Origin: a virus
Virus record (IMG/VR): IMGVR_UViG_3300040946_000369
Span: 1 to 22,250 of that record
Length of the DNA stretch: 22,250 bases
Strand: one strand, 5' to 3'
Part shown: positions 316 to 22,250 of the stretch, piece after piece
Numbering within the stretch: position 1 is the stretch's first letter
Layout: every line of letters starts with the position of its first letter
Notes under the pieces: generated by a model
Databases searched by the model: none
The model's input: the letters and a program-made list of their open reading frames with translations, nothing else
Told to the model about the DNA's origin: nothing
Translations under genes and position numbers: made by a program

Positions 316-2139
316 TTAGCCGTTGATTGCGCCGCTAATAGCGCCACCGACACCACCGGCAAGAGCTCCCACTCCAGCACCAATTGGACCGGCTCCTACA
401 AGACCTGGAATAGCTCCAGCAGCGGCACCTGGAACCGCGCCCCTGATAGCACCCTTAACGCGCTGCATGATCCCAAGAGCAGTCTTGGCCATAGCTTCAG
501 CAGCCTTTTGGATAGAGGCCGTTTTCCACTCTTCTGGCATAGGCGTTTTCGCATGCTCATTTAATGCTTTGTTGCCTACAGAATTGGCGTGTATCTGATT
601 CCAAGCATCGCCGATTCCGGCACCAAGAGGCCCTCCCAAACCCAATCCGGCAGCGCCAAACCCAATGGCATTATCTACTGCTGCGTCATGGCCAATAGAT
701 CCATGATCTGGAGAACCAAAATAACCCAGCGCTGCACCACCTAAACCACCGATGCCAGCACCTACCAGACCCCCTTTAACAGCGCCCATAGGAGAACGCG
801 CAGTGTCATAGGCAGCACGTCCTTTATCAAAACTTTGATCAAGTAAAGTAGCTAAATAAGCAGTATTTCTAGCTTGATCGCGTGTAAGCTCTTTACCCTT
901 AAGTACTGAATTACGATACACGTTATCCACAACAGACTTACGCACAGCTGCCGCGTCTAAAGGATTCTCGCCTTCAGCCGTTTTAGCCATCTCTTGCTTA
1001 TACCCAATATGGGCAAGAGCTCTACCAGTCAGGTCAGCATAATAGGCTGAAGCTTGCTTATCTTGATCGTTATTACCGGTGAGTGCGCTAGCCGCAAGAG
1101 CGCCTCCCGCTGTAGCAAGAATAGGATGACGGCCAGCAAAACGAATTGCTTTACCGCCGATTCCACGAGAGCCTTGCGCCTGTTGCCACAGTCTCGCCCC
1201 CGTCGATTGCGCGGGAGAGACAACACCTGCTTGTGCCGGCGTCTGCGCTACAGGGATCTGACCTGTATTCTGTGTTTTACCTAGACCGAGCAGACCACCA
1301 CTGCGAATAGGCTGAGTTTTCACGTTGGCGACAGCTCCGGCTGGTCCAGTAGCGGATCCAAAAGCAGGAGCAGGTGTATGCGCTGGCGCAGGAAGAGAAG
1401 CTTGCTGCGGCGCAATCAACGGCTTGGCGACACCAGGTACAGGCAACCTAGGAGCTACCATGGGCCTAGGCAACGGTGTAATAGGCATTCCAACGCCGGC
1501 CGTCTTCACCTTAGTAAACGGCATCGGCGTAGCCGTTACAGTTTGCGGAGTGGGACGAGAAGGTGCGCTTACACCCTGCATCTTTACTGGCACAATCGGC
1601 TTAACGGTAATACCAGGTGCAGAGGTTTTGATGAGTGCGTCGACAAAGCAAGCCGCAGCCTTTTTCTCCGCTGTAACTGCCTTACCCTGAGGCTCTACAT
1701 CCGGTACGTGCTCTTCGTCTTTTTCTTCAGGCTCCTCCTCTTCGAAGACACCTTCTTCGTCACCACTATCCGCACTGTTATTCGCTCTAGAAAGCTCCAA
1801 ATCCAGCTGCCGTTTCTTTAGCCGGACCATATCTTCTTGCGCGTAAAGATCTTCGGGCTCGGGCTCTGAGCGTTCAAGGCGCTTTTGAATACGCTTACCC
1901 TCGACCGCGAGAAGGTCTTGTGCAAGGCCGAGAGCCCTATCGTAAAGAGGCGTACCCTCGTATTTACTAAGCCATTTACCGTCGTCACCATCGGCGCAAT
2001 ACGCCTGCGTAACGCTGCCCAAAGAAGCAATTTTCTGAATCTCTGCGATAGGCAGCGTCATCATAATTTTGGTCAGCTCATCCTCGGCTTTCTTATCCGA
2101 GGCGTTCTTAACCAGCGTATTCAGGAATGCATCCAGCAT
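316..2139 (-). CDS. Glycine-zipper virion-type protein with K-T/Q-A motifs (607 aa)
   Basis: No family is recognised. Layout: a helical N-terminal region (about 1-120), a very acidic stretch (about 125-150), a long Pro/Ala-rich linker (about 190-310), a helical segment (about 355-445), then two glycine-zipper segments (about 451-511 and 555-607) with GxxxG spacing and hydrophobic filler. The C-terminus is one such zipper. Five K-[TQ]-A motifs occur near residues 211, 361, 386, 539 and 552. The start has AGGAG 6 nt upstream, and that SD overlaps the stop codon of the preceding -1-frame extension, which implies translational coupling. Zipper helices can insert in or traverse membranes, so an internal or ejected virion protein is possible. 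A tape-measure or scaffold-like role is the alternative. Both are inference. Confidence 0.85.
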   Translation of the reverse strand: MLDAFLNTLVKNASDKKAEDELTKIMMTLPIAEIQKIASLGSVTQAYCADGDDGKWLSKYEGTPLYDRALGLAQDLLAVEGKRIQKRLERSEPEPEDLYAQEDMVRLKKRQLDLELSRANNSADSGDEEGVFEEEEPEEKDEEHVPDVEPQGKAVTAEKKAAACFVDALIKTSAPGITVKPIVPVKMQGVSAPSRPTPQTVTATPMPFTKVKTAGVGMPITPLPRPMVAPRLPVPGVAKPLIAPQQASLPAPAHTPAPAFGSATGPAGAVANVKTQPIRSGGLLGLGKTQNTGQIPVAQTPAQAGVVSPAQSTGARLWQQAQGSRGIGGKAIRFAGRHPILATAGGALAASALTGNNDQDKQASAYYADLTGRALAHIGYKQEMAKTAEGENPLDAAAVRKSVVDNVYRNSVLKGKELTRDQARNTAYLATLLDQSFDKGRAAYDTARSPMGAVKGGLVGAGIGGLGGAALGYFGSPDHGSIGHDAAVDNAIGFGAAGLGLGGPLGAGIGDAWNQIHANSVGNKALNEHAKTPMPEEWKTASIQKAAEAMAKTALGIMQRVKGAIRGAVPGAAAGAIPGLVGAGPIGAGVGALAGGVGGAISGAING

Positions 2140-2148
2140 GACGGGCTC

Positions 2149-2529
2149 CTAGGCTTTCTTCTTTGGAAAGATTTTATTCGTGAGCGCATTAGCTCCATAA
2201 CCGATAGCAACAGGAGCTACGGATCGTACGATACCGCTACCGACATCCATAGCAGCGGCTGGAAGTGGATGCGCTACAGCAAGCTCTCTATTGGCAAGAC
2301 TCTTTTTGGCCTGCGCCAGCTGATACGCCTTCCAAAAGCCGCCGTCTTGTTTACTCTCAAGCGCTTCTACTCGCTTTTGAACAGGTTCAGTACCCGCACG
2401 GCTACCACGGTACGTACCAATGGCATTCTTTGCCCCTGTTACAGTACCGATTACACCAGCGCGGATAAGTGCATCCGTCAGTTTACCTGCCTCTTTTTGT
2501 GCCGCCGCTACCTTGGCAGCACTCGGGCT
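2149..2529 (-). CDS. -1-frame C-terminal extension of the 676-aa ORF (126 codons, no own start)
   Basis: This frame is open from a stop at 2563-2565 down to TAG at 2149-2151. It holds no ATG, GTG or TTG before an ATG about 38 codons from its end, so it cannot start conventionally at full length. Its product reads like a real protein: an Ala/Lys-rich helical start (SPSAAKVAAAQKEAGKL), a central helical part with QKRVEALESKQ, and a hydrophobic Gly/Ala/Val C-terminus ending KIFPKKKA. Its stop codon overlaps the SD of the 607-aa gene, as normal neighbours do here. It is in the -1 frame relative to the upstream ORF, and the overlap contains a slippery heptamer and hairpin. A frameshift would give a 670+126 = 796-aa protein. 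The alternative is a one-base sequencing or natural indel in the AAAA run. Confidence 0.75.
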   Translation of the reverse strand, partial: SPSAAKVAAAQKEAGKLTDALIRAGVIGTVTGAKNAIGTYRGSRAGTEPVQKRVEALESKQDGGFWKAYQLAQAKKSLANRELAVAHPLPAAAMDVGSGIVRSVAPVAIGYGANALTNKIFPKKKA

Positions 2530-2535
2530 TTTGGG
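2499..2535 (-). promoter_or_regulatory. Programmed -1 ribosomal frameshift signal (slippery heptamer plus stem-loop)
   Basis: On the coding strand the heptamer CCCAAAA (2535-2529) is read in the zero frame as C_CCA_AAA, matching X_XXY_YYZ. It is followed by a 6-nt spacer (GCCCGA) and a stem GTGCTGCC / GGCGGCAC of 8 bp with one G-U pair. The stem encloses an 8-nt loop, AAGGTAGC, that contains the zero-frame stop TAG. After a -1 slip, reading continues CCC AAA AGC CCG into the 126-codon frame. Heptamer, spacer length and stem are as expected for bacterial and phage -1 frameshift sites. Efficiency cannot be judged from sequence. Confidence 0.75.
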
Positions 2536-4538
2536 AGCAGCGCCCTCCGGTAAGCTGCGGTCTTACCTACCTGAGTAATCTGCTGAGCCATGTTGGGATC
2601 TGGTCCAGGAGGGCCGCTCGCATTGGCGTTCATATCAGGCGAGCCCGCTGGGGGTGCAGATCCAGGTGCAGTTTGCTGGTCTGGGGAGGCCCCTGCTGGC
2701 CCTCCTGGTGGTCCGCCGCCGCTGTCACCCTGAGCTGGCGGGTTAGGCGGTCCACCAGCCAAGCCCGCGTCAGGAGACGGGGCTGCACCGCCATTAGGGT
2801 CCATACCCATAGCTTGCCCTGGGTCGCCCATCATCGGTGTAGCTTGTCCCGTCGTCTGCGTAAGGCTTAGGGCCGCTTGCATGGCAGGGTCTTGTGATGC
2901 CAGTTCCATAAGCTTCATGCGCATATCCTGCTGCGCAATACGGAGCTGAGCCGCGGTCTGTGTTTGATTTAACGCGTCGTCTTTGGCCCTCATCGCTTGA
3001 TCGATGGCCGACTTGACCTTTACTTCCGCATTTGCGGCATCTTGTTGTGCTTGCGCAGCCGCCTGCTGAATCTGCTGTACTTGCATTTGAGCCTGCTGCT
3101 GAGCCATAGCCGCTTCTTGCTTAGCTTGTGCAGCTTGCTGCCTATAGAAATTGGCCTCATTGCGCTCTTGATACTGCTGTCCCATCAATTCAGCGTTGAG
3201 GTAATTTACCGGGGCTACCTCGGCATTATCCGTAGGAGATGCCATAGGCGCCTCTATATTAGGCGTGGCCCCCTCTTCGCCGTCAGCTTGCTTACGCAAC
3301 CAACCGACCATGGCCGCCGCCATGTCAGTGACAGATGCGTGCTTATGCCGCGCAACATCTACTTCAGTACCAAGCTCTCCCCCAAGACGATGGCCTGCCA
3401 TACCGCCGAGTGCTGCGCCACCCAAGGTTGCGGCAGGGTGACCTTTACCCAAGGCATGACCCAACGCTGCGCCCGCGCCTGCGCCAGCCAGCATACCGGT
3501 GCTTCTTCCAACGCGTTCCCCTCGACGAGCAGCTTCTCGATGGTGCTCTGCAGAAATTGTAGTAACCGCACGCTGTCTACCCGTTTCCTTAAGCTCTGCG
3601 TCACTAGGGTTCTCTTTGGCCCATTTCACAAGAAGCGCGGCTACCTTGTTAATGCCACTAGCTTTCTTTGTACCTGGCACCTCAGGTTCTTCTTCTTCTG
3701 AAGCTTCCCCAGGAGCACCACCAGCTTCGGTAAGATAATCCTCAACAGGATTGGGCTCGCTTTCTTGCTGACCCTCAGCACCTTCGGCAGCTTCCGGCTC
3801 CTCACCCTCTTCTTCACCGGGCTGCTCAACGCCGGCTGCTTCCTCAGCCTGCTGGTACTCAGGACTCTCTACAGCTTCTTGTTCTGGAGTTTCTCTCACC
3901 TCATTCTGCTCCATATGAGCAGGCGGCTGAGGAGCCATAGGTTTATTCCCATAGTCGGGCGGCAGAGCTTGCCAATAGCTGTCCAAATGCGCCTGGCATT
4001 CGCCCATAAAGAATTTAATCTTGCCTTTCATTGGGTTATTTCCGAGCACGTTGACAAGCTCGTGGTAGCTTTGAATCATTTCTTGCTCAGCTCGAATCAT
4101 TCGCTGAGCCACAGAAAGAGGATCAGTACTGGCTGGAGGCATATCTGTGTCTGGAATATGCGGGGCGCCAGCAAGGACAGACATACGCTCTACCAGATAT
4201 TCAAATGCGTGCTTATGGTCGTATTGACCGCTGCAAAGCGCACTCTTTACCTCAGCGGCGTAGGGACCTCGAATGCTGTTATGATAAATAAGGCTCGCAG
4301 TCATGAGACGCAGCAAACCCATGCAGCATTTGCCCATCAGGCTAACAGCGAACTCGAGGGGTACCTCAAATTGACCCTCCAGTACGCCTGTCTCGTCTGG
4401 CGAGTCTTGCCAACCTGCCGTTTTAACGAGCGCCGAAGCCGTATTACTCGGCGCTTTCATCGCCAAGAAGTAAGAGCTGGCCTCGTGGATAGGAATCTGT
4501 GCCTGATCTCCCCAAAGAGCACGCTCAAAGCTATTCAT
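2508..4538 (-). CDS. Virion-type protein with ferritin-like N-terminal domain (676 aa, zero frame)
   Basis: Residues about 60-192 resemble the four-helix ferritin/bacterioferritin fold: helix A at 60-85, a D107-x-x-H110 site in YDHKHAFEYL followed by an LAGAPHIPD loop, a third helix with E151/E153 in IRAEQEMIQSYHEL, and a fourth with E180 and H184. The helix A glutamate is not evident and helix D is ExxxH rather than ExxH, so metal binding may be partial or lost. Next come an acidic Pro/Glu/Gln linker (205-290), helices with K-x-A motifs, a glycine zipper (345-390), a Gln/Ala-rich coiled coil (453-550) and a Pro/Gly-rich tail (563-650). The zero frame ends six codons after a frameshift site. 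GGAG lies 8 nt before the ATG. A structural role is inferred; metal storage or redox activity is speculative. Confidence 0.85.
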   Translation of the reverse strand: MNSFERALWGDQAQIPIHEASSYFLAMKAPSNTASALVKTAGWQDSPDETGVLEGQFEVPLEFAVSLMGKCCMGLLRLMTASLIYHNSIRGPYAAEVKSALCSGQYDHKHAFEYLVERMSVLAGAPHIPDTDMPPASTDPLSVAQRMIRAEQEMIQSYHELVNVLGNNPMKGKIKFFMGECQAHLDSYWQALPPDYGNKPMAPQPPAHMEQNEVRETPEQEAVESPEYQQAEEAAGVEQPGEEEGEEPEAAEGAEGQQESEPNPVEDYLTEAGGAPGEASEEEEPEVPGTKKASGINKVAALLVKWAKENPSDAELKETGRQRAVTTISAEHHREAARRGERVGRSTGMLAGAGAGAALGHALGKGHPAATLGGAALGGMAGHRLGGELGTEVDVARHKHASVTDMAAAMVGWLRKQADGEEGATPNIEAPMASPTDNAEVAPVNYLNAELMGQQYQERNEANFYRQQAAQAKQEAAMAQQQAQMQVQQIQQAAAQAQQDAANAEVKVKSAIDQAMRAKDDALNQTQTAAQLRIAQQDMRMKLMELASQDPAMQAALSLTQTTGQATPMMGDPGQAMGMDPNGGAAPSPDAGLAGGPPNPPAQGDSGGGPPGGPAGASPDQQTAPGSAPPAGSPDMNANASGPPGPDPNMAQQITQVGKTAAYRRALLPKARVLPR

Positions 4539-8326: not shown

Positions 8327-10387
8327 TTACATCGGCTGGCTGGCGTTAAAGCCGCTGGCTGCTTGAGGGGTATTAGGAGCACTTCCACCACCCATCATTG
8401 CCTTTTTCGTCTTCTTCGACTTGGGAGGCTCGCCCGCAGTTTTCTGCTGTTCAGCCAATTTGGCAAGAACAGCTCGCGCTGCCGCAGTCTTCGTCAACGA
8501 CGCATTTACGCTAGCGAACTTGGTACCAGCCTCTTCGGTATGATCGAATGCTTCCCTAAGCGTGCGGTCATGCTGCATAGAAAGCGCAGGCTCATTAATG
8601 ATGGCGCCAAGATCATGCTTGGGATCTGCCTTAGCCTGTTGCTTCTTGTAATTGATAGCCGCCTCGTTTGAAGCAATTAGGTTCTTCTGCGAATTCACGT
8701 CGCTCGGCTCGGGAGGGCCATCGGTTTCAGAAGCAGAAACGCCATCGGGTAGATTGGGTCCGATCGTGTCATTGATTTTACCGGCGTCGATTTGCGCTGG
8801 GAATATGGCATCCTCAGCTTGCTTGTACAAACCGACGGCCATCAGATTACGAGCGTAGACAGAACCTGTTTTAGGAGCACCTTCAGCTGCCTGCGCCTCA
8901 AGAGCCTTATTGGCCAAAAAGTCATTTACTGCTTTTTGGTGTCCGCTAACCATACCGTAGCCGGCGCCGATGCCAGTACCAAGACCAGCACCAATACCGC
9001 CGCCAATAAGCGCGCCTTCCCCTGCGCTTCCATAAAGTGCACCCAGACCAGCGCCACCAAGTGCGCCTACACCACCCCCAACACCAAGCCCGGCAAGGCT
9101 ACCAAGCAGATTACCTCGCAGACCTTCTTCAGCAGCTTGATGACCACCCGCAGCGTCTCCTGTCTGCATACGGCCAAGCCCATAGCCAACAGGGTTCATG
9201 AATGTAGCAAGCGGTAGACGCGCCGTCTTTGCCATAGCGGCAGCCGCTTGTTCAATCGCCGAAGCGTGCTTTGCACCTTTTGGAACGTGTTTGCCAACGC
9301 CCATTCTGGTTAGACCGCCACCAATCGTTCCAATTCCTCTAGCGACGCGTCCACCACCAAGCGCTTTAGCGCGCTGATGCCCAGCGGTACTACCAGCGAT
9401 AGCACCAGTAACTTTACCAACAGTGCCACCTACGCTGCGCCCCTTGCGCTCAAGGGGTGTTTCATCTTTTGCCGCGGCAATCTTACCGACACCACCGGTT
9501 TTTACGAGCTGAAGATTGCCTTTGCCGTCCGTTTCGATACGTGCAAGACCAAGAGTGACGAGATTATTTGCGTAAGCAGCCGAGGTTTTCTGTCCCTCAA
9601 TACTTGTCTTTTGATTGGGGATGGGCTCTTCGGGTTGCTCTGGATGCTCCACGGCATCGTTGGTCTGAAGCCCGGTACCAGGGTCAGCAGGACGGGTAGG
9701 ATCCTTCTGCTGCTCAGGATTTTTGGGAGGCTGCTCTAGCGCTCTACCGCTCTCATTTGGCTGAAGCGGGGGGTTGGAGCTTACCGCGTGCGTAACATCC
9801 AATGCACCAGGGCCTTCCCCAGGACCAACACCCGTCGTTGTTCCAGAATCAAGCTCGATTGCGGCAAGCTTTGGATTCATCTTCTTTGCAATAGAATCCA
9901 AGGCACCGGCCAACTTGATGGTCAGCGTTGTAGGCATACTCGTAGGTCGCGCCGACGCAGTTTTTGTCTGTGTAACCGGAGGCGTACCTCCGTTATTCGC
10001 GATTTGACGAGCCGCTTCAAGGCCCACATCGACCCGTGCTGCAGCACCCGCCGTGGCTTGTTTGATCAATTCCTGGAGCGAGGGTCGCCCGGTCATCGTA
10101 GGCATCGAACTGTTCTCCTGTACGGACGCAACCTTAGGTAGGAACTCAAGCCCACGTGGAGCTTGTGATTTTTGAGCGCTGGCTCCCATATCGGGTGTTG
10201 GCGGAGTTCCTGTATTCACGCGAGAGTACGTTGTACGGCCACCAAGACCTACCGGCCCACGCTGTCCAGGCGCAGGTTTATTCTCAATTGCCGTTTGTGG
10301 CACAGGCGCTTGACGAGCTGGGGCGGTGCTAGGATCAGGAGTTCCCGACCCGATACCATCCGCCAGCTTGTACAAAACCTGCCCCAT
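8327..10387 (-). CDS. Large glycine-zipper virion-type protein with six K-T/Q-A motifs (686 aa)
   Basis: No family is recognised. Order: a Pro/Gly-rich disordered N-terminus (1-100), helices with K-x-A motifs (about 85-175), an acidic/Pro linker (185-260), a first Gly-rich segment (317-367), a short helix bracketed by KHAS and AKTA (373-389), a second long glycine zipper (424-482, GxxxG repeated), a helix bracketed by KTGS and YKQA (506-524), and a Lys/Ala-rich end. K-[TQ]-A motifs are at about 109, 142, 387, 522, 633 and 649. Its composition closely parallels the 607-aa and 676-aa proteins. The zippers suggest membrane contact, for example an internal protein ejected with DNA, but this is inferred. 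The SD is weak (AAAGG at a long spacing). Confidence 0.85.
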   Translation of the reverse strand: MGQVLYKLADGIGSGTPDPSTAPARQAPVPQTAIENKPAPGQRGPVGLGGRTTYSRVNTGTPPTPDMGASAQKSQAPRGLEFLPKVASVQENSSMPTMTGRPSLQELIKQATAGAAARVDVGLEAARQIANNGGTPPVTQTKTASARPTSMPTTLTIKLAGALDSIAKKMNPKLAAIELDSGTTTGVGPGEGPGALDVTHAVSSNPPLQPNESGRALEQPPKNPEQQKDPTRPADPGTGLQTNDAVEHPEQPEEPIPNQKTSIEGQKTSAAYANNLVTLGLARIETDGKGNLQLVKTGGVGKIAAAKDETPLERKGRSVGGTVGKVTGAIAGSTAGHQRAKALGGGRVARGIGTIGGGLTRMGVGKHVPKGAKHASAIEQAAAAMAKTARLPLATFMNPVGYGLGRMQTGDAAGGHQAAEEGLRGNLLGSLAGLGVGGGVGALGGAGLGALYGSAGEGALIGGGIGAGLGTGIGAGYGMVSGHQKAVNDFLANKALEAQAAEGAPKTGSVYARNLMAVGLYKQAEDAIFPAQIDAGKINDTIGPNLPDGVSASETDGPPEPSDVNSQKNLIASNEAAINYKKQQAKADPKHDLGAIINEPALSMQHDRTLREAFDHTEEAGTKFASVNASLTKTAAARAVLAKLAEQQKTAGEPPKSKKTKKAMMGGGSAPNTPQAASGFNASQPM

Positions 10388-10405
10388 GACTAAAGCCTTT
10401 GGCGC

Positions 10406-11158
10406 TTACGCCGGAACCTGAGACCAATCGATCGGGTAACCAGCAGACTCCATGAGCTCAAGCGCGCGAACGTTGAGCGTGTGGTCGTAATTACCCTTCG
10501 TAGCGGCAGAGGCCGTCTTGTCCATCGGAGGAACACCCAGCGTAAGAAGCGCATTCAACCGATTGGCGGCGTCGTTGACGTCCATATTGGCTGCCTGCGC
10601 CAACTTGAGCGCGTACTTGGCCGCCTGAACGTCAAGGGCAGATGCAGCCTGCTTTACAGCAGCCGTTTTCGCCGTAGGGACAACGACAGGTACCTGCTTA
10701 CCGGAAACCGCAGAAGCTTCAGCCAGCTTGATCTTCTGCTGCTCATCGTGGAGAGCATGCGCCATAGTGCGCCCAAGGTAATCAGCTTCAGCAACCTTCT
10801 GTTGCCACTCAGCCATTGCATAGGCTTGCGCCTGTGCCTCCTTTTTCTCCTCCTCCTCTTTTTCCTCTTCTTTCTTCTCTTCCTCTTTCTTCTCTTCGTG
10901 CGTCTCCCCCTCGCCGTCCCTGTGCTCACCCTCTTCCTTGTTCTCTTCGAAGGGGTTCTCACCGGCTTGCTTGGTGAAAGCGCTGTAGAGCTCGGTACGA
11001 GCCTCAGGAGTCATAGCCGACAGATCAATTCCGTTGGCCGCCGCTGATTTGGCGAACAACTCCAGATGGGCTTGTTTGCGCATCTCTTGATTGACAACAT
11101 CGCCGTACCCATGAGTATTGTAACGAGCTGCGAGCTGGGGGTTCATACCGGTATTCAT
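10406..11158 (-). CDS. Charged helical protein, scaffold candidate next to the protease (250 aa)
   Basis: The protein has a helical N-terminal part (1-65) with two K-Q-A motifs, an almost pure Glu/Lys stretch (71-107) predicted to be a stiff single helix, then Ala-rich helices carrying AKTA, VKQA and DKTA, and a C-terminus ending SGYPIDWSQVPA (truncated view of ESAGYPIDWSQVPA). No enzymatic or membrane motif is seen. It lies directly downstream of the prohead protease. In many phages the scaffold sits there and is degraded by that protease, which fits the highly charged helical composition, but the assignment is by position and composition only. SD AGAGGA lies 5 nt before the ATG. The Glu/Lys stretch is encoded by an uninterrupted 61-nt purine run. 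Confidence 0.8.
   Translation of the reverse strand: MNTGMNPQLAARYNTHGYGDVVNQEMRKQAHLELFAKSAAANGIDLSAMTPEARTELYSAFTKQAGENPFEENKEEGEHRDGEGETHEEKKEEEKKEEEKEEEEKKEAQAQAYAMAEWQQKVAEADYLGRTMAHALHDEQQKIKLAEASAVSGKQVPVVVPTAKTAAVKQAASALDVQAAKYALKLAQAANMDVNDAANRLNALLTLGVPPMDKTASAATKGNYDHTLNVRALELMESAGYPIDWSQVPA
10837..10897. repeat. 61-nt uninterrupted polypyrimidine (+) / polypurine (-) tract
   Basis: Every base from 10837 to 10897 is C or T on the plus strand. The coding strand is therefore all purine, made of GAA, GAG, AAA and AAG codons for a Glu/Lys helix. Such tracts can form triplexes or slip in replication. Selection for the Glu/Lys helix is the simplest explanation. Confidence 0.85.
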
Positions 11159-11191
11159 TCTCTTCCTCTTACAGAGCGAGAAGCTGTCTAG

Positions 11192-12835
11192 CTAATGATA
11201 AAGTTGTATCATCCGGGACGGCAAGTATGCAACTTCGTCCAGGTATGCATCGCGTAAGTAACAATAAGACAATGGCGTAAACACCTCTTCAGGAGTAGCT
11301 GAAGCGATTTTAAGGATATCAATATCCTTCTTTGTCGCCGTTTTCTGAAGCAGGCTTTGCGCGTAGGGGGCCATGGCCAGAGCTTGTTTTCTATATCCGT
11401 TATAAGCGGCCCCAATCTTACGAAGAAGCTCAGAGTCATGGGAAGTACTCTCCCTTGGAGAATCCCCAGAAGAGCTAATCACAACAACGCGGCGCTCAAT
11501 GGCTGGAGCCAGAGCCGTGCGCTGATCAAATAAAGGCAAAAGCATTCGCGCCAACGCAGGCATAAACGAATCAGGAGACAACGGGCATTCTGCGCTATCC
11601 TCCGATTCTGGAAATACCTTGTTGTCTTTTTCTAACGAATCTGCCAACGCCCCTCTACCCGCCCTTATCAAAACAATTCTTTGGAACTCTCTGGGGCGCA
11701 ATAGCATGCCAAGTCCACTCGTTGTGCTTAGAGCACTCGACGTGGGTACACCAGCTAGCGCACTAAGAATTTCTTTAGGTATATCCGGCTCATTCTTGGT
11801 CATGAGCGGGATAGCTTTCGCGGCAGCTGGGATAGGAGTTACCTCTTTATCTATTTCGGCGTTCTTGTCTTTTGCTGATTTACCCAAGAAGGCAACTTTC
11901 AAAGCGTCCTGTGCTTCAGCAACTTTCTCAAAGCCGACGTAACGAACAGAAGCTGTCTTAGCCTCAGGCTCGCTCTGCACCGAACCATTACGCGCGATAT
12001 AAACCATCACCTTAGCGGTGCGGTCTGCCCCAATGAACACGAAACTGATATCAAAGAATCTAGGATAGTCGTTGTAGACGAATACCTTCCTGCCATCAGG
12101 CAGGATCTTGTTCATGCTTTTAAGGCAATACTCATCGTAGTCATCCCGGGTAATGCTGAGACCCTTAATGGGATCTTTCTTGTGGTATTCAAGGACAGCG
12201 ATACCTGGGTGCTTGTGCTTTTTAGGATCAAACGTCGCCTGCGCTTTGCGGTATTTATCCCAATCAAGAGTGATCGAGCTGCAGTCATATGGGACCCTTG
12301 TGCCCATGCTGACATCGGCGTATTGCCCAGCCTGCAGCTTATCCCAAACCGGGATACCCCCGAACTCGATACAGTTAGCATGGTCTACTCGAACAACGAG
12401 CTCGACCCGCTTCATGTGGTCATTCCAAACCGCAAGCTCTACGCTGCCATAAGCGCGATTTATATCCTTATTTTTGTGGTGGGAAAATACACCAGCGTTG
12501 TAAAAGGTAGGAAAGCCATAAGACCAATTAGTGGACAGGGCCCTATCAACACCAGGGTTATCTGACCAATTCGATGGCTTGTGAACAAGTCCAGCTTCTG
12601 TAAATGCATCTCCATTAATATTACTGGAGTAATACTCACTGGCGCCCAACGCGTTTACGAGAACGTATTGCGCGTCTTGTCTAGGCCTAAGCCCGGCTAT
12701 GTATTGCGCGATAGGAGTGAGCAAATGCGAGGCGGCAGTCTTCTCAAACGCCCGATCTACCTCAGGAGTGCTAAAGAGAGGTATCGCGGTGTAGCCAAAG
12801 TCGTTCTGACGTGAGAAGGTACTGAGCTTAAGCAC
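11192..12835 (-). CDS. Prohead maturation protease, assemblin-like, with long C-terminal extension (547 aa)
   Basis: The first roughly 280 residues fit the herpesvirus-assemblin/prohead-protease pattern: NINGDAF (72-78), GVFSHH (115-120) with candidate catalytic His119/120, GSVELAVW (130-137), a strand with VVRVDH, and ADVSMGTRV (173-181) with candidate nucleophile Ser176. These proteases cleave scaffold and other head proteins inside the prohead during maturation. The C-terminal 260 residues go beyond the usual domain; they are Ala-rich with K-T-A motifs (for example EAKTASVRYVGFEKVAEA) and may be a scaffold-like or self-cleaved part. The start is GTG at 12835 with a poor SD. The 184-aa gene ends 8 bp upstream. 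Recognition is from motifs, so the catalytic assignment is moderately sure. Confidence 0.78.
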   Translation of the reverse strand: MLKLSTFSRQNDFGYTAIPLFSTPEVDRAFEKTAASHLLTPIAQYIAGLRPRQDAQYVLVNALGASEYYSSNINGDAFTEAGLVHKPSNWSDNPGVDRALSTNWSYGFPTFYNAGVFSHHKNKDINRAYGSVELAVWNDHMKRVELVVRVDHANCIEFGGIPVWDKLQAGQYADVSMGTRVPYDCSSITLDWDKYRKAQATFDPKKHKHPGIAVLEYHKKDPIKGLSITRDDYDEYCLKSMNKILPDGRKVFVYNDYPRFFDISFVFIGADRTAKVMVYIARNGSVQSEPEAKTASVRYVGFEKVAEAQDALKVAFLGKSAKDKNAEIDKEVTPIPAAAKAIPLMTKNEPDIPKEILSALAGVPTSSALSTTSGLGMLLRPREFQRIVLIRAGRGALADSLEKDNKVFPESEDSAECPLSPDSFMPALARMLLPLFDQRTALAPAIERRVVVISSSGDSPRESTSHDSELLRKIGAAYNGYRKQALAMAPYAQSLLQKTATKKDIDILKIASATPEEVFTPLSYCYLRDAYLDEVAYLPSRMIQLYH

Positions 12836-12843
12836 AAAAGGCT

Positions 12844-13398
12844 CTATGGAGTACCCAAAGACTCCTTAAGGTTCTTTTCCTTCTGCATTAGCTCCAGCGC
12901 TTTAACGCGCTCTGCCTGTGCCGCGAGCGGGTCGACCTGGCGAGCTCCAGCAGAAAGTGCATTACCAATGCCAGGACCAGCGCTGGTGAAAGCTTTTGAG
13001 ATAGAAGACTGAGGTAGTTCTTTGACTTGACCTCGCGCCTCTGCCGCAACAAGCCCAGGCGCCTGTGTATTACCCAGCATCTTCTTCATGTACGCGCTGG
13101 CGATGAGAGGGTCTGAGGCAAACTCAGGATTCATCTTATGCAGCGCGTTGAACATCAAATTGAACCTTTTTGGGTCCTGCGCGTGATGCTCCTGCAGCTC
13201 TTCATCGTTGGCCAACATATTATTGAAATGGTGGCTCTTAGTAACCGCGTTGTAGATTTTACTAGCGGCGACAGGAAGGGCCGCGGCGGCAACAGTGGCA
13301 CCCGCATGAATACCAGCGTTACGAAGCGCAGGCCCCCAACCGTGCTCTTGCGGACCTTCGGCTTGCTTCGTCGAGAGGTATTCCTCTACCGGATCCAT
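12844..13398 (-). CDS. Helical virion-type protein (184 aa)
   Basis: GTG (13401) and ATG (13398) are adjacent in frame. The ATG is preferred because GAGGTG sits at about 7 nt, and its A is shared with the TGA stop of the 320-aa gene (TGATG), a typical coupled junction. Residues near 11 contain TKQA. A short hydrophobic Ala-rich stretch (about 28-48) is followed by a helical domain with FNNMLANDEELQEHH, RFNLMFNALHKMNPEF and ASDPLIASAYMKKML, then an Ala/Gln-rich C-terminus. It lies between the 320-aa gene and the protease. The family is not recognised. The central helical domain looks like a conserved fold, and an internal head protein role is inferred from the neighbourhood. Confidence 0.8.
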   Translation of the reverse strand: MDPVEEYLSTKQAEGPQEHGWGPALRNAGIHAGATVAAAALPVAASKIYNAVTKSHHFNNMLANDEELQEHHAQDPKRFNLMFNALHKMNPEFASDPLIASAYMKKMLGNTQAPGLVAAEARGQVKELPQSSISKAFTSAGPGIGNALSAGARQVDPLAAQAERVKALELMQKEKNLKESLGTP

Positions 13399-14360
13399 CA
13401 CACCACCTCAGAGTAATGCTGGTTTACCAAGCGCTCAAAAGTAGTGAGCTGGTTAATTCCATCCACGACCTCGTTTCTAGAAGCTCTAAGCTGCGCCAGC
13501 TTTGCCAGAGTATCGCAATAAGCGTCAAACGTGACGACTACGGGATGCTTCTCGTTCACAACAAGCCTTGTCCCAGCCGTCTTCTCAATAGAAGCTCCTA
13601 GAGCGTCCCAAGAACTAAAAACTTCTTCTTGCAATCGGGGGCTAAGAAAAGCGAACGCTGCTTTTACTAGCTCAGGCTTTGGTGCTAGCGCTTGATTCCA
13701 CGCTTGCACAATAGCGCCTAGAGACGTTCCAGATAACGCGGCTTGTTTAACTTGGTGATACATCTCCTCAGATACGCTGAGCAGGTCAACTTCAAGCTCC
13801 GACATTTGAGCCGTATGCGCGTCCTTGATCGTGGCGAGCTTGTCCCGAAGATCGTAAACATCAGCCAATGGCTTCGCGAACGGAATAGGAGCAGCTTTTT
13901 GACCTACGCGAAATACCTCAGCCAGAATGTCATCGTCAGCTACAGCCGCCGCCGTTTTTTCAAAGCCACGTGCAGCAGAAGTTTTTATAGGCGTATGCGA
14001 ATAATCAGCGATGCCCCTGTCAAACACCGTTCCGCCACCACCGTCATTCAAATCCTTTATCACTTCGCCAAAATGGGCTGGGCCACCATCAAACACCACG
14101 TACTTGCTAGCGGCGCCTTCTTTGTTAAATTCAGACAAGAAGGCACACGTGTTCGCGAACTCGACTACGCGGCGTACCTGCTCCGGCGCAAGTCCAGCGC
14201 TTTTAACCGTTTCCACGACAGCTGCGTTAAGTGTTGGCTGAGCGCCACTGCCGTAAAGATCCGCAGCATGATTCCCGTAAGTCTCCAGCTCTTCTCCGCT
14301 AACAGCGCGTGCTGAAGATTGCTGAATCAGTGTCTGCGGTGGTAGGTCGTACTGGCTCAT
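13398..14360 (-). CDS. Virion-type protein of unknown function, K-T/Q-A motifs (320 aa)
   Basis: The protein is mostly helical. Residues about 85-125 form a Gly/Asp-rich part (VVFDGGPAHFGEVIKDL, then DGGGGTVFDRG). After IKTSAARGFEKTAAA (about 125-140) comes a long helical region with VKQAAL (about 206) and IEKTAG (about 262). This combination of a folded N-terminal part and K-T-A-marked helices resembles the 250-aa and protease proteins, so it is probably packaged in or processed with the prohead. No SD is visible before the ATG at 14358-14360. Its start is 23 bp from the start of a divergent plus-strand gene, so its leader, if any, must run into that gene. It occupies the place after terL where a portal is often encoded, but it is too short and shows no portal features. 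Confidence 0.8.
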   Translation of the reverse strand: MSQYDLPPQTLIQQSSARAVSGEELETYGNHAADLYGSGAQPTLNAAVVETVKSAGLAPEQVRRVVEFANTCAFLSEFNKEGAASKYVVFDGGPAHFGEVIKDLNDGGGGTVFDRGIADYSHTPIKTSAARGFEKTAAAVADDDILAEVFRVGQKAAPIPFAKPLADVYDLRDKLATIKDAHTAQMSELEVDLLSVSEEMYHQVKQAALSGTSLGAIVQAWNQALAPKPELVKAAFAFLSPRLQEEVFSSWDALGASIEKTAGTRLVVNEKHPVVVTFDAYCDTLAKLAQLRASRNEVVDGINQLTTFERLVNQHYSEVV

Positions 14361-14383
14361 CGATTGTCTAAAGAGGGTACAAC

Positions 14384-15088
14384 ATGCGCGAGGACAGCGG
14401 AAGTAAAGAGAAAGTTGTAACGCTGCGAGAGACCGCAGAGATTCTTGGGGTGACTCCGGATCGTGTCACTGGCCTAATTCGTAATGGCACGCTCAAGAGA
14501 GTCCCTGGAAATCTGAAGTCAGAAGCGTTGCTCTATGCCGCAGACGTTGAGGCTCTCTACGAAACGCGCCTAGAAGGACGTCAAGGCCCCACGTCTCTTC
14601 AGATAAGAATCGCTACAGCAGAAAAAAAGAATAAGCTATTAGAGCATCGAATAGAGCTTCTCGAGCGGATGCTCGGCTTGGTCCCTCCGGCCGTACGCTA
14701 CGACAAAACGGAAATTCTCGACTTTCTCAACCGTGTGCATGAGGCGTTGAAGGAACCACCCACCGAGACACTGGAGATCCTTGATTGGTGCGCTTGCCTT
14801 TTCAGCATCCACGAAGAGCTGTTTGATCTTATCGAAGCTTATACCAGTAACCCCGAGCCATGGGTTGAGATCATGCTCTTGGCTGAGAGGATGTACAAGA
14901 ACAGCGAAGGGCGTTTGGACGATCAAGAACTCTTGAACGCCTATACAGAATTGGCGGCAGCAAGAAGAAGCCTTCGGCATGCGGTCTTCTTCTACATTTG
15001 GCGCCGGCAGGGAAGAGAAAAGGCTACGGAGATTATCCCCGAAGTGAGCCCCGATATTTTGCATAAAATTGGTAAATACGTTCGATAG
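14384..15088 (+). CDS. Helix-turn-helix plus coiled-coil protein, small-terminase candidate (234 aa)
   Basis: Residues about 10-60 form a MerR/excisionase-type winged helix: VVTLRETAEILGVTPDRVTG, then LIRNGTLKRVPG and LLYAADVEALYE. This is followed by a coiled coil (about 75-100, TAEKKNKLLEHRIELLERML) and a helical C-terminal region (110-230). The same order of winged helix then coiled coil occurs in Nu1-type small terminase subunits, which bind pac/cos DNA and recruit the large subunit. A transcription regulator is the main alternative. AGAGG lies 8 nt before the ATG. The gene is on the opposite strand to terL and is tail-to-tail with it, with 13 bp between stop codons, and head-to-head with the 320-aa gene. 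Placement beside terL supports, but does not prove, a packaging role. Confidence 0.8.
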   Translation: MREDSGSKEKVVTLRETAEILGVTPDRVTGLIRNGTLKRVPGNLKSEALLYAADVEALYETRLEGRQGPTSLQIRIATAEKKNKLLEHRIELLERMLGLVPPAVRYDKTEILDFLNRVHEALKEPPTETLEILDWCACLFSIHEELFDLIEAYTSNPEPWVEIMLLAERMYKNSEGRLDDQELLNAYTELAAARRSLRHAVFFYIWRRQGREKATEIIPEVSPDILHKIGKYVR

Positions 15089-15101
15089 TGGGGCGTATTG
15101 C

Positions 15102-16877
15102 CTAGCTTTGATTGGTTGGCCCCGTATAGGGACTGAGTGGTTTACCATCGGGGCCTTCAATCGAAGGCGCGATGATGTCTGGGCGGCGGATTACTACCAT
15201 AGACGACAACCAGCAAAACAAGAATGAGTGAAAGGAATCGTCTGGAGTACCCGCTTTATGGTCGTATTTGACCATGCGTAACGTGTCATTGTACTCGCTA
15301 TAAATTGCCGTAAAGTCCTCAGCGAACGGCTTCTTGAACTCGTCCCATTTGGGGAACTCGGCTTTACCTTTTTTGATGGCCTCAAAGATGGCGCTCATCA
15401 CAGCGGTACGATGGACCTTCCAGCGCATCATTTTGACGTCAAATACGACCTTCTTATTTATGCGCGCCATGTACTGAAACTGATGAACACGGGCGTTACC
15501 AAATGCGCGTACTAGGTGATGGTTCATCCCGAAACCATAGCCGTGGTCACAGCCTATTGTGGCGGCATTGAAATGGTTAGCAGTGTCCAGAATGATCTTT
15601 ATCTGAACGCCTGGATCTGCTTCCTCACCCACAAAGCGGTGCATGTACACGACACGAAAGCGATCCTTTACGTAAGTCGCTATCGTCATTACAGTGTAGC
15701 TGTTATTACCACTCCCCCAATCTATACCAAAAAAGAATGGCTCAGATAACGACTGGTTACGGATTGATTCCAGCTCCGATATCGAGTGTGTACCACACTG
15801 CGCCTGAAGCTGCGCTCTAGTGATTGGGCGAGTGCCGGCCTCATAAGAAATACCCAAACACTCATTCATAAACTGAGCGCGTGGATAATTTTCGTAGTCG
15901 TGCAGAACCTCACCCCAGCTACGGATCTTCCATGGCACCATGAGCTGAGGGATACGGTAGCTTTCCCAAGGTACCTTCTGCCGTTCTTCATCAGGCTCTA
16001 CCATCCACGCCCATTGAGATCGTTCGCCTTGTGGATCAATTGCTTTTCCACACTTAGCGCATATTGGTCCCACTTTACCGATATTCTTCTCACCCAATAT
16101 ATTCCAGTTGCCGCACCCTTCGCAGGGAACAACCCACTCTCCCTGTGTACTCCTATTCGCCCGGTACTCCTCCATGATGTTATCCAAGCTTTTGGGCGTA
16201 CCTGAGTATGTATATCCTTTCCAACGCTCTATGGCGTGTGATGTGCACTGTTCAATGATAGGAACACAAGCGCGAAGGATATCCTGGAATTCATCTATGC
16301 TTAATCTATCGACGGCGTTACCTCGCGTTCGATCGGCGTTGAGAAACGCATAACGAAGAACGATCTTTGAGCGGTTTATGAACTGCTTCTCAAAGATATT
16401 CTGACTCAGCATCCGCGTAGTAAACTGACTGAGTATGGGACTTGTCTCAATGGGCTCTTTAATGCGGTCATTCGAAAATGTCTTCGTCTGCGATGCGGAA
16501 GGGCTAACATACATTTGACGCAAACCCGCTACGAGCATAGCGTAACAAAGTGATCTATTTCCGAGTAATGTCGTCTTTTCAGTCTGACGGGCTGCACACA
16601 GCAAAATACGCCGTGCTGGGCTGTCGTAAATTTGCTTTAAGTGCCGGCGTCCAGCAAAAGAAAAAGGTCCGTACCCAGTGCCGTCATCTTTAGGAATAAG
16701 AAATGTTCGCGCTGTGAACTGAGATGGGCGCAGTGCTGGTATACTTGGCGCGGTCTCTTTAGCTCTGCGCAAGACAATAGACTCTTCTTTAGGAGGTACT
16801 TCAGGCACCCAAGGCTCGTCATCAAACCAGGTATCGTCGTAGTCGTCCTCAGGCTGTATTTGTGCGGAGATACCCAT
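15102..16877 (-). CDS. terL: Large terminase subunit (591 aa)
   Basis: This is the ATP-driven DNA packaging motor with headful or site-specific nuclease. ATPase domain: a deviant Walker A at 96-103 (ARQTEKTT, with Glu in place of the usual Gly before Lys101), Walker B at 191-196 (RLSIDE, D195/E196) and a coupling motif YSGTPKS at 224-230. A zinc-ribbon-like insert has C252/C255 and C273/C276. The RNase H-like nuclease domain starts FFGIDWGSG (D386), with GCDHGYGFG (D444) and GTPDDSFH (D546/D547). Length is usual. CGAGG lies 6 nt before the ATG. The start codon overlaps the start of a divergent plus-strand ORF in the tetramer CATG. The assignment rests on motif order and is firm. Confidence 0.93.
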   Translation of the reverse strand: MGISAQIQPEDDYDDTWFDDEPWVPEVPPKEESIVLRRAKETAPSIPALRPSQFTARTFLIPKDDGTGYGPFSFAGRRHLKQIYDSPARRILLCAARQTEKTTLLGNRSLCYAMLVAGLRQMYVSPSASQTKTFSNDRIKEPIETSPILSQFTTRMLSQNIFEKQFINRSKIVLRYAFLNADRTRGNAVDRLSIDEFQDILRACVPIIEQCTSHAIERWKGYTYSGTPKSLDNIMEEYRANRSTQGEWVVPCEGCGNWNILGEKNIGKVGPICAKCGKAIDPQGERSQWAWMVEPDEERQKVPWESYRIPQLMVPWKIRSWGEVLHDYENYPRAQFMNECLGISYEAGTRPITRAQLQAQCGTHSISELESIRNQSLSEPFFFGIDWGSGNNSYTVMTIATYVKDRFRVVYMHRFVGEEADPGVQIKIILDTANHFNAATIGCDHGYGFGMNHHLVRAFGNARVHQFQYMARINKKVVFDVKMMRWKVHRTAVMSAIFEAIKKGKAEFPKWDEFKKPFAEDFTAIYSEYNDTLRMVKYDHKAGTPDDSFHSFLFCWLSSMVVIRRPDIIAPSIEGPDGKPLSPYTGPTNQS

Positions 16878-17268
16878 GCAAAACCTCGAAGAAACGAACG
16901 ACCCTAGAAAGGCACTTGAGGAAATCTATAGCTGGTTGAGCGCAGGTGGAGACTACTTTCTAGGCGGTTGGTCTATGGATACCGACGAAAGAAAAGAGTC
17001 GCACAGGGTGACACTCCAGGTTCAGCATATTCCCGCGACGATGCACCGGGCAATTAAAGGCGTTATTCAAGACGTAGCTTTATGCGTAGGCTGGAGAGCT
17101 TTGGCTTTGAAAATCACGAATAGCCTGGTGGAGTTTACGCTCAAACCCTACCCGCGTGAGGAGCGGACGCGGCGAGAAGCGCGTCGTGAAGAGTATCGTC
17201 AAGACGCAAAAAGAAAGCGTCTAGATACGCCGCCAAGTCAAGAAGGTGACCATAACCCTGAGCTTTGA
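16876..17268 (+). CDS. Small protein of unknown function (130 aa)
   Basis: The ATG at 16876-16878 has GGAG 6 nt upstream and shares CATG with the terL start on the other strand. The first 95 residues look folded, with alternating strands and helices (DYFLGGWSMDTDERKE, HRVTLQVQHIP, ALALKITNSLVEFTLKPY). The last 35 are very charged and probably disordered (REERTRREARREEYRQDAK). The 3' 128 bp overlap the end of the convergent 156-aa gene. Both ORFs have a good SD and protein-like composition, so both are kept, though one of them could be shorter or unexpressed. The family is not recognised. Its place against terL suggests a packaging or regulatory role only by association. Confidence 0.6.
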   Translation: MQNLEETNDPRKALEEIYSWLSAGGDYFLGGWSMDTDERKESHRVTLQVQHIPATMHRAIKGVIQDVALCVGWRALALKITNSLVEFTLKPYPREERTRREARREEYRQDAKRKRLDTPPSQEGDHNPEL

Positions 17269-17611
17269 ACCACCAGCTTGCTACTTCAGGCGTGTATTTT
17301 GCCACAATTCTTGGCGCATCGGCCTTGAAATGCTCCTTAGCTACTACACTAAGCGTAGCGGCGAACGTGTTGAGCCACCAGTATTCCAATTGTTTGATGT
17401 CCCACGCTGCCTTAAGCTTGTCCGACACAAAGAAATGGATAATTACAGCCCTGTCGTTGAGCGTATGCTCCGCAGTAAAATAACGAAAACTGACAGGAGT
17501 AAACGTAAGGGCCTGAGGTACACCCATATGCCCTTGAAACTCAGCTGCAGCAAAGCTCTCGGGGCTACCATCTGCTACGGCCACTACTCGCTCTGACACG
17601 TTACTTGTCAT
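17141..17611 (-). CDS. Unknown protein upstream of terL (156 aa)
   Basis: The ATG at 17609-17611 has GAGGT 5-6 nt upstream and overlaps the end of the preceding 335-aa gene by 11 bp, so translation is probably coupled. The sequence is mixed alpha/beta with many aromatics (VSFRYFTAEHTL, AVIIHFFVSDKLKAAWD, LEYWWLNTF, GYGHLLDLAAYLDAFF). No signal peptide or clear membrane helix is seen. Its 3' end overlaps the plus-strand 130-aa gene by 128 bp. No family is recognised. The position just before terL would suit a packaging accessory factor, but nothing in the sequence demonstrates it. Confidence 0.75.
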   Translation of the reverse strand: MTSNVSERVVAVADGSPESFAAAEFQGHMGVPQALTFTPVSFRYFTAEHTLNDRAVIIHFFVSDKLKAAWDIKQLEYWWLNTFAATLSVVAKEHFKADAPRIVAKYTPEVASWWFKAQGYGHLLDLAAYLDAFFLRLDDTLHDALLAASAPHAGRV

Positions 17612-18608
17612 TGTCTACCTCTGTGTGTGCAGGGAGCTCTAGGCTCTCTGTAAAGTTACCATTGGACAGCGCTCTGACTGTAGGAATTTCATTTAGATCT
17701 GTAGTCAACGCCACTAGCGCCAGGTTCTTATTACTTTCTACAATCCCGTCATCTTTAGCGCGCAGGATATTATCCATATTTACGGCTACGGTAGCTAGAT
17801 CGCGCGCCTCCGTAGCTGACTTAGGACCACCCCTAAGCAAAGCTTCTTGCACCGCGATGATGGAGATCGTCCTAGCCCCTTCTGCCAACGCGCTGTAATC
17901 AGCCCTGTTCGGCTTTAGTCCATGCCGCAGCTGAAGCTTCATAGCTGCCAGCTTGGGCGTTGGTGAATTGACTGCCATGTAGCGCGCGTCGCTGTACATA
18001 GCCTGCTTCATCGCTTTGGCACGAATTAAATCCTCTGGGGAGCTACCATCTAGCATCATGTCATCAACGCGAATGGACATGAGGGCACGTAACTCTGTGG
18101 AGTCTACGAGGCTAGTGTTAAAAAAGAAATGCTCAAAGTACTCGATGGCCTTGGGCGCAACATTAAACCCAAAGCGCCTAAGGCGCGTACAGATTACAAG
18201 CAATGGCTCTTCAACAAGAATAAGCGCTTCTACTAGCTCTTTTGCACGAGGATCCTCTAGAATACTTAAGGCATTTGTAGCGTGCGCATTACGAAAGAAA
18301 AGGTTGTGTACCTTATGCTGCTGCAGAAAAGTGTAGGAGGGAACATCGGACTCCACCATAGGGAAAAACGGAGTTGGTGGATGCAACGTAGCTCGCAACT
18401 GCGCTAAGTATCGACCGCCAGGATAATCCAAGTGATGCTCGCGCAATGTCCTTATGATGTCTTCATCCGACAGCTTGTCGGGTAAAAGCATCAGGTAGCG
18501 AATATAGACCTCAGCGGGGCTTCTGCGCACAGCCATGCTTAGACCATACACCGTGCAAAAGATCAGCGCCAGCAGGCATAACAGTAATGGAGGAACCAAT
18601 GACGCCAA
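17601..18608 (-). CDS. Helical protein of unknown function before terL, start uncertain (335 or 311 aa)
   Basis: The longest form starts with a TTG at 18608 and would begin with a very hydrophobic stretch (LLLCLLALIFCTVYGL, residues 8-23), like a signal anchor. The first ATG is at 18536 (MAVRRSPAEVYIRYLM, 311 aa). Neither has a convincing SD. The body is alpha-helical, with DKLSDEDIIRTLREHHLDYP near the N-terminus and a region rich in Leu/Arg/Phe (LVICTRLRRFGFNVAP, IEYFEHFFFNTSL). Helical proteins just upstream of terL can be packaging subunits, but no helix-turn-helix is clear. The stop at 17601 overlaps the next gene. The plus-strand 65-aa gene's ATG lies within 10 bp of the TTG, so the long form would overlap it. 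Confidence 0.75.
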   Translation of the reverse strand: MASLVPPLLLCLLALIFCTVYGLSMAVRRSPAEVYIRYLMLLPDKLSDEDIIRTLREHHLDYPGGRYLAQLRATLHPPTPFFPMVESDVPSYTFLQQHKVHNLFFRNAHATNALSILEDPRAKELVEALILVEEPLLVICTRLRRFGFNVAPKAIEYFEHFFFNTSLVDSTELRALMSIRVDDMMLDGSSPEDLIRAKAMKQAMYSDARYMAVNSPTPKLAAMKLQLRHGLKPNRADYSALAEGARTISIIAVQEALLRGGPKSATEARDLATVAVNMDNILRAKDDGIVESNKNLALVALTTDLNEIPTVRALSNGNFTESLELPAHTEVDNDK

Positions 18609-18796
18609 AACTGGAAGAGAAGCTTCGTACCCTTAATAGCGAAACCTCGCGAGGTATTCTCGAGGCGCGTGAGCTCATTGAGTTCACTGAAAAAATCGCA
18701 GACGCTGCACGCGCTGCGAACCGACACGTTATTCGTCTAGCATTACCTGGTTTACAAATACCTGGAGAACGCTCCAGGTTGTTCTGTGAGCGCTAA
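18599..18796 (+). CDS. Small helical protein, unknown function (65 aa)
   Basis: The ATG at 18599 follows GGAGGA (18589-18594) at a 4-nt spacing, a strong SD. That is better than the in-frame ATG at 18587, which lies before the SD. The product is helical and charged (KLEEKLRTLNSETSRGIL, ELIEFTEKIADAARAANR), with a Pro/Gly turn near the end. It is divergent from the 335-aa gene and convergent with the 684-aa gene. The last codons carry an 8-bp hairpin. Function is unknown; the short length leaves some chance that it is not a gene. Confidence 0.55.
   Translation: MTPKLEEKLRTLNSETSRGILEARELIEFTEKIADAARAANRHVIRLALPGLQIPGERSRLFCER
18760..18779 (-). terminator. 8-bp hairpin, possible minus-strand terminator
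   Basis: ACCTGGAG and CTCCAGGT pair perfectly around a 4-nt loop. On the minus strand it lies about 90 nt after the 684-aa gene and is followed by ATTTGT, a weak U-rich tail. On the plus strand it is inside the 65-aa ORF. It could end fibre-gene transcription before the packaging genes. Confidence 0.4.
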
Positions 18797-18845
18797 AAGC
18801 TCAACACCGTAAACAGCAATGCCCTGCGCCGAAGGCCATAGGTAA

Positions 18846-18883
18846 GCGCGCTACGCGCAAAGAAAAGGTGCTACCTTTTCTTT
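18846..18883. terminator. Tandem hairpins overlapping the 684-aa gene's stop codon
   Basis: GCGCG-CTA-CGCGC (18846-18858) abuts AAAGAAAAGGT-GCT-ACCTTTTCTTT (18859-18883), a perfect 11-bp stem with a 3-nt loop. The second stem encodes LKKR and the stop of the 684-aa gene. Its 3' arm is U-rich on both strands, so it may work in either direction between the two convergent genes. Confidence 0.5.
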
Positions 18884-20925: not shown

Positions 20926-20935
20926 GAGCTAAACC

Positions 20936-21967
20936 CTAACTGTACTGATCAACAATCCAACATCCAGCAGATCCATTACCGCCAGTACGCACAGCAGACG
21001 CACCAGTAAACGCGCCGCTGCCGCCTGCTCCATACCCTGTTGCATTATTTCCATTACCGACAGCGTTAATACCCAACCCACCCGCACCAAGTGGGCTTGA
21101 TCCACCATTACCGCTGACTCCAATAGGCGTAGCAACAACCAACGTTACACCAGGGTAACCAGGATATCCTGCTATATTCACGTCACCGTTTGTAGATACA
21201 GCGCCACCAGCGCCGCCTAGATACGAAATAAGCGTCGTAACCGCAGTTGCTACAGGAGCACCCACGCCACCGTTCGCTGTATACGTAGTCACGCCAACAA
21301 CAAAGGTGCTATTCGTGCCGTTGCCACCAAGTGCACCGCTAGCCCCAGCTCCTGCTGGACCGCACGTGTACGCATAAGAAGTATTAGGAGATACAGCAAC
21401 AGTCTTTTCTATGTAGCTTCCAGCGCCACCTCCGCCACCGGCAGCAGCCGCAGATGCCAAAGAAGTGCATCCAGCACCACCTGCTCCGCCACCTACACCG
21501 CGAATACGGATTGTGCTGCAACTACCCGTCGTAGTGAAATTTCCAGAAGCCGAAGTAAGCAACGTGCTGCCAAGGTATCGACCGGTAAGCGGTGTCTGTA
21601 TCTTACCGCCACTAGAATCATAAAGAGACCAATCAACGCCCTCTTCATAACTAAACGTGTAGCTCGGCTGTAACGCAAATGAGAATAGTGGCTCAACGTT
21701 TGTGCCATCCGTATGCTGAAGCGTGATAACGTTCGAGGATGCCCCACCGTTACGAACAGTAATTTTCTTTACGTTGGTATACGTGCTCGATGCCACCGCA
21801 GGTGTAATCTGCGTCGTTGTAGCCGTCGAGATTGTAGCTGTATTTTGATACTCTGGCGTTACAGTAGTGCCGCTAATGCTTACGCATGAGACATGCGCAT
21901 TGATCGTCCCGGCCGACCCGGTAATCAGATTTATGAGCGATCCGGTTGTACAAAGCAGATATCCCAT
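20936..21967 (-). CDS. Glycine-rich fibre/adhesin-like protein (343 aa)
   Basis: Residues 1-135 look like a small beta-sandwich domain common in phage fibre-region proteins (TNVKKITVRNGG, VITLQHTDGTNVEP, GVDWSLYDSSGGKI). Residues 136-160 lead into a glycine-rich domain (about 160-335) with many GG and GxGG runs, resembling polyglycine adhesin-type tips and ending GNGSAGCWIVDQYS, a typical C-terminal closing strand. This would act at the particle surface in receptor binding or fibre assembly. The ATG is at 21965-21967, with a weak AAGC-type SD. It is followed 10 bp later by the repeat protein and preceded by another beta-rich fibre-region gene. It could equally be a baseplate-attached or head-fibre protein. 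Confidence 0.78.
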   Translation of the reverse strand: MGYLLCTTGSLINLITGSAGTINAHVSCVSISGTTVTPEYQNTATISTATTTQITPAVASSTYTNVKKITVRNGGASSNVITLQHTDGTNVEPLFSFALQPSYTFSYEEGVDWSLYDSSGGKIQTPLTGRYLGSTLLTSASGNFTTTGSCSTIRIRGVGGGAGGAGCTSLASAAAAGGGGGAGSYIEKTVAVSPNTSYAYTCGPAGAGASGALGGNGTNSTFVVGVTTYTANGGVGAPVATAVTTLISYLGGAGGAVSTNGDVNIAGYPGYPGVTLVVATPIGVSGNGGSSPLGAGGLGINAVGNGNNATGYGAGGSGAFTGASAVRTGGNGSAGCWIVDQYS

Positions 21968-21977
21968 GTCTGCTTAG

Positions 21978-22250
21978 CTAGTTGATTGTGATAGTGATCG
22001 TCTGCGCAACGGTATCCCCTGCCGCCAGCACTGCGTTAGGCGACTCGCTCGATTCGAATGGCATAACCCCAAGGTTAATAACCGCTGAGCTGAATTCAGC
22101 TTCCTCAGCTACAGTTGCAGAACCTGTAGCTGTAAACGTATGTGTCAGCGTGAACGTTGTTGCATTGAGCGCGTGACTCCAAGAACCAATAGCTCTTGTA
22201 AGTCCGCTGCCAGAAAACTCTGAGTTAAGCGTCGTATCTGATGTGGCTGG
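21978..22250 (-). CDS. C-terminus of a beta-rich virion protein (partial, 90 codons)
   Basis: The frame is open from the right edge to TAG at 21978-21980, and the start lies outside the window. The visible part has strand-rich, Thr/Ser/Ala-rich sequence (FTLTHTFTATGSATVAEEA, GDTVAQTITITIN) like the C-terminal domain of many small phage tail or fibre-region proteins, with an alternating pattern up to the last residue. It ends 11 bp before the next gene, so the two are probably cotranscribed. Only the domain style is recognisable, not the family. Confidence 0.75.
   Translation of the reverse strand, partial: PATSDTTLNSEFSGSGLTRAIGSWSHALNATTFTLTHTFTATGSATVAEEAEFSSAVINLGVMPFESSESPNAVLAAGDTVAQTITITIN

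Follow-up and report, generated by a model that had tools for sequence, protein, structure and literature searches.

The window analysed here, a 22,250-base viral contig whose minus strand bears most of the genes, very probably contains a dnaX-type programmed -1 ribosomal frameshift cassette near the 3′ end of a 676-aa gene (4538..2508, minus strand) that sits among the head genes of a large tailed phage. The majority of ribosomes would terminate at the zero-frame TAG and release the 676-aa protein, and a fraction, shifting back by one base as the pairing changes from CCA-AAA to CCC-AAA, would append a 126-aa domain, giving a product of 796 aa. The cassette would set the proportion of protein molecules that carry this Gly/Ala-rich helical domain; both slippage at the site and its rate are properties that we infer from the DNA.

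All elements of the cassette are located on the minus strand. The slippery heptamer C_CCA_AAA (CCCAAAA, 2529..2535) lies where the two frames overlap, in X_XXY_YYZ phase with zero-frame codons CTC CCA AAA, and is followed by the 6-nt spacer GCCCGA (2523..2528) and, 6 nt downstream, by a predicted 8-bp hairpin (2499..2522). The hairpin stem GTGCTGCC/GGCGGCAC pairs 2522..2515 with 2506..2499 in eight pairs, one of them G-U, and the loop AAGGTAGC (2514..2507) carries the zero-frame TAG stop (2510..2508). The -1 frame (2149..2529) comprises 126 codons and ends at a TAG at 2151..2149; it contains no usable start, its sole ATG/GTG/TTG being located 95 codons past the heptamer. An earlier sequence-only reading had described heptamer phase, 6-nt spacer, 8-bp stem, stop in the loop and 126-codon -1 frame correctly to the base, and the computed lengths of 676 and 796 aa agree with the isoforms that it proposed. 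The follow-up additionally identified an element absent from that reading, a Shine-Dalgarno (SD)-like GGAGG (2544..2548) 8 nt 5′ of the heptamer, as is characteristic of dnaX-type sites.

Within the 676-aa gene, the hairpin ranks in the best 0.6% of 30-nt windows, and anti-SD pairing 5′ of the heptamer in the best 2.7% of positions. Overall structure in the 106-nt site region was no greater than in shuffled sequences (z = 0.15), so that the local hairpin alone stands out. In-phase X_XXY_YYZ heptamers with Y = A/T occur at 6.2e-4 per codon in the phage family, and at this rate the probability of a chance heptamer in the 55-nt overlap of the window is about 1.1%. The combination of SD-like element, heptamer and strong hairpin was found at 7 of 207,200 in-phase positions, four of which are at the locus of the 676-aa gene.

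Used as a direct query, the 676-aa protein retrieved no relatives among the scanned viral contigs, and a protein search of the phage collection found no homologue. Loci were instead gathered via the head protein and the terminase, and tblastn together with a C-terminal-domain profile then identified the domain in about 37 distinct contigs. The domain is fused in one frame in 32 of these, including the nearest relatives (L003, L002 and L009), and is encoded in the -1 frame in five (the window, L029, L045, L057 and L065). The extension in the window is homologous to the in-frame C-termini, matching L003 at 8e-16 in a pairwise comparison and the domain profile, which includes its own sequence, at 8e-29. 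The five split contigs belong to three separate lineages, and at least three separate changes are needed on the head-protein tree to account for the split state. Each split overlap (31-70 nt) contains exactly one in-phase heptamer (5/5 contigs), for which the chance per overlap is 0.6-1.4%; the heptamer is C_CCT_TTA in all four contigs other than the window. When the slip products are aligned to fused relatives, zero-frame residues match before the heptamer and -1-frame residues after it, and this frame change is clearest in the protein alignments of L065 with L155 and L137. L145, which is close to L065, stops short of the site. L010 and L011 are devoid of the C-terminal domain, which can thus be lost.

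Furthermore, five fused relatives retain C_CCT_TTN at the matching place, as C_CCT_TTA in L058, C_CCT_TTC in L059, L137 and L149, and C_CCT_TTT in L155. A slip in these relatives would lead to a -1 stop after 3-11 codons. Runs that short are expected at 4-17% of positions per gene and the C_CCT codon context accounts for 2-15% of prolines in each gene, an uncommon choice; multiplying these values does not yield a probability, given that the five loci are related to one another and that the site had been specifically sought. A conserved Pro-Phe could account for part of the heptamer conservation. In most in-frame relatives, including L003, L002 and L009, a strong heptamer is missing at the junction, and a universal site is therefore not claimed. 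Since these nearest relatives are fused without a strong heptamer, the window site represents a separate and recent event, and its heptamer appears to have arisen independently of the C_CCT_TTN group. By analogy with dnaX, both the -1 layout and the fused layout with heptamer would yield a long and a short isoform, and the retention of the slip site despite rearranged frames suggests that the isoform ratio matters.

An SD-like sequence is located ahead of 9 of 10 sites, at a distance of 8-21 nt, and doubles as Lys-Glu-Val coding sequence in the L065 group. L029, L045 and L057 have a GGCAG/CTGCC hairpin in common, positioned 6 nt downstream, whose loop contains the zero-frame stop as it does in the window; a search pattern for this cassette matched those three contigs only. 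Ranked within their own genes, the hairpins of L058, L045, L057 and L029 fall in the best 0.4%, 2.6%, 6% and 17%, respectively, and those of L065, L149 and L155 are weak. On the question raised by the sequence-only reading, whether related phages keep heptamer, stem and frame relation, four other contigs keep the layout, but the nearest relatives are fused and the stem is weak in some relatives. Frameshifting itself gains from independent relatives that share the frame relation together with a canonical heptamer, although its nearest homologues encode the fusion. That reading had also named one-frame homologues as grounds for rejecting frameshifting. Most homologues, the nearest included, are literally of this kind, yet they do not refute it, because the -1 layout persists in others and the heptamer in some of the fused ones.

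A one-base deletion introduced by assembly or sequencing, the true product being an in-frame 796-aa fusion as in the nearest relatives, is an improbable explanation. Lengthening either CCC or AAAA by one base would restore such a fusion, and L003, L002 and L009 are fused; against this, both runs are short, a second contig agrees exactly over 13,094 bp, the joint occurrence of heptamer, hairpin and SD-like element is unlikely to be accidental, and the -1 layout is common to independent relatives. The site itself is covered by no second assembly, as the other contig ends at window position 9157 and a DNA pattern scan yielded no other copy. We give slightly less credence still to a genuine recent mutation that truncates the protein and leaves the -1 frame as a dying remnant. 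The complete lack of the domain in L010 and L011 would be in line with such a loss, but random indels should produce +1 relations equally often and without a heptamer, whereas all five split cases are -1 with a canonical heptamer, and the 126 codons form an intact frame with matches to both the domain profile and L003. The co-occurrence of all three elements in the correct frame, combined with the habit of the family, makes programmed frameshifting much more likely than a deletion or an assembly error.

Coupled starts in overlapping genes are common among phages, which would favor separate production of the C-terminal domain through internal or coupled initiation. This alternative is largely refuted, and we consider it very remote, given that the sole start codon in the window lies 95 codons past the heptamer and that the other split contigs have no shared start position before the domain. 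Equally far-fetched is transcriptional rather than ribosomal slippage as the source of the extra base: the resulting protein would be identical, but 3-4 identical bases in a row fall short of the 9 that make up the run used by Thermus dnaX (PMC5009743).

In an unbiased scan covering both strands of 2.8 Mb, 19 sites combined a heptamer close to the end of an ORF with a -1 extension, five of them in the locus of the 676-aa gene and eight in the next gene downstream, which in the window (316..2139, minus strand) encodes a 607-aa protein with Gly-zipper-like segments. A next-gene site in L053 was set aside, as an ATG overlaps the stop and ordinary coupled initiation explains it. Homologues of the 607-aa protein in seven relatives carry their own heptamer, C_CCA_AAA in L013 (position 17350), L017 (14716), L024 (16674), L069 (17337) and L154 (14196) and C_CCT_TTA in L045 (17400) and L057 (18113), and in all seven exactly one codon separates the heptamer from the zero-frame stop. 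Among 1,852 ORF ends, 9 have a heptamer one codon ahead of the stop, compared to at most 5 for each other distance. The -1 extension of L045 and L057 is in frame in L029, and that of L013 matches the in-frame sequence of L003 as well as the -1 frame of L017. On this sequence evidence, the seven sites likely constitute a second -1 frameshift site, although the window's own copy of the gene contains no comparable heptamer. We regard it as an even call whether, in a large uncultivated phage family with genomes near 185 kb, slippage serves as a standing isoform-ratio device in two adjacent head-region genes, with selection acting on the ratio and small indels moving the C-terminal domain from the zero to the -1 frame or back, so that an extending slip would become a truncating one and vice versa.

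The terminase large subunit and the major head protein of the window were assigned via PHROGs and are followed by three small genes and then the 676-aa gene. An HTH-type DNA-binding protein is encoded on the plus strand (14384..15088), opposite to and between the terminase and the other late genes. Window positions 9157..22250 (13,094 bp) are identical to contig IMGVR_UViG_3300018017_000005 (L082), indicating that the same phage was assembled twice across that part. No tape measure gene was identifiable by PHROGs in the L057 genome.

The 676-aa protein consists of a ferritin-like helical domain, a Gly-zipper-like segment, a Gln-rich coiled coil and a Pro/Gly-rich linker. The ferritin-like domain, encoded near the head protein gene (3894..4538, minus strand), has a fold closest to Dps and mini-bacterioferritin: AlphaFold models the N-terminal 215 residues as a four-helix, ferritin-like bundle (pLDDT 82), for which Foldseek returned Dps and mini-bacterioferritin at E about 7e-4, and the match to Pfam Ferritin is below the cut-off. 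The ferritin-like N-terminus assumed in the sequence-only reading is consistent with these structural matches, and its Ala/Gly-rich helical tail is borne out by a prediction of four helices with Gly/Ala-rich stretches for the extension. A PDB structure search with the C-terminal domain model gave no match. The position among head genes points to a virion-type (particle) protein, and the extension domain is probably an internal or ejected module of the Gly-zipper type. The motif K-x-A-[AGS] occurs 37 times in proteins encoded on the minus strand of the window, compared to 11 expected from shuffling, with examples in the genes at 4538..2508, 10387..8327 and 2139..316 and none in the head protein or terminase. 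It adjoins the junction in many relatives and possibly represents a processing site; the extension might be an internal module that becomes released.

Tail assembly chaperones and coat-protein extensions are the best-known cases of frameshifting in tailed phages. As in lambda G/GT, a late phage gene here carries a -1 heptamer close to its 3′ end, but the zero-frame product is a 676-aa protein with a ferritin-like domain encoded among head genes; a G/GT-type chaperone was rejected on the basis of this size and the lack of a PHROG or Pfam chaperone match. Frameshift extensions of coat proteins in T3/T7 (gene 10), Lactobacillus phage A2 and Listeria phages A118 and PSA are Ig-like or short, and they likewise place a C-terminal extension on a minority of a structural protein (PMC5009743). 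Such a domain is in frame in some relatives, and how the two frames relate appears to differ by chance from case to case (PMC5009743). In contrast, the protein described here is neither a major capsid nor a major tail protein, its extension is a Gly/Ala-rich helical domain rather than an Ig-like one, and several fused relatives retain the slip site. Salmonella phage Arash and Vibrio phages D69, D148 and D181 are distant relatives with similar genome size and 25-28% identity in the major capsid protein, but the search of the phage collection with the 676-aa protein returned no homologue.

The closest parallel is dnaX, in which the tau and gamma isoforms with or without a C-terminal domain arise from an SD-like element, a heptamer and a hairpin; slippage truncates the product in Escherichia coli and seems to extend it in a few other bacteria (PMC5009743). 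The protein is unrelated and encoded by a phage gene here, and both layouts occur in one phage family, with a comparable site in the adjacent gene. Gene callers will shorten such proteins, which calls for caution in annotation. The present case is a variant of known recoding that would work like dnaX, and a cassette in a ferritin-like/coiled-coil gene whose slip would extend or truncate the product depending on the relative offers a natural experiment on isoform ratios in phages.
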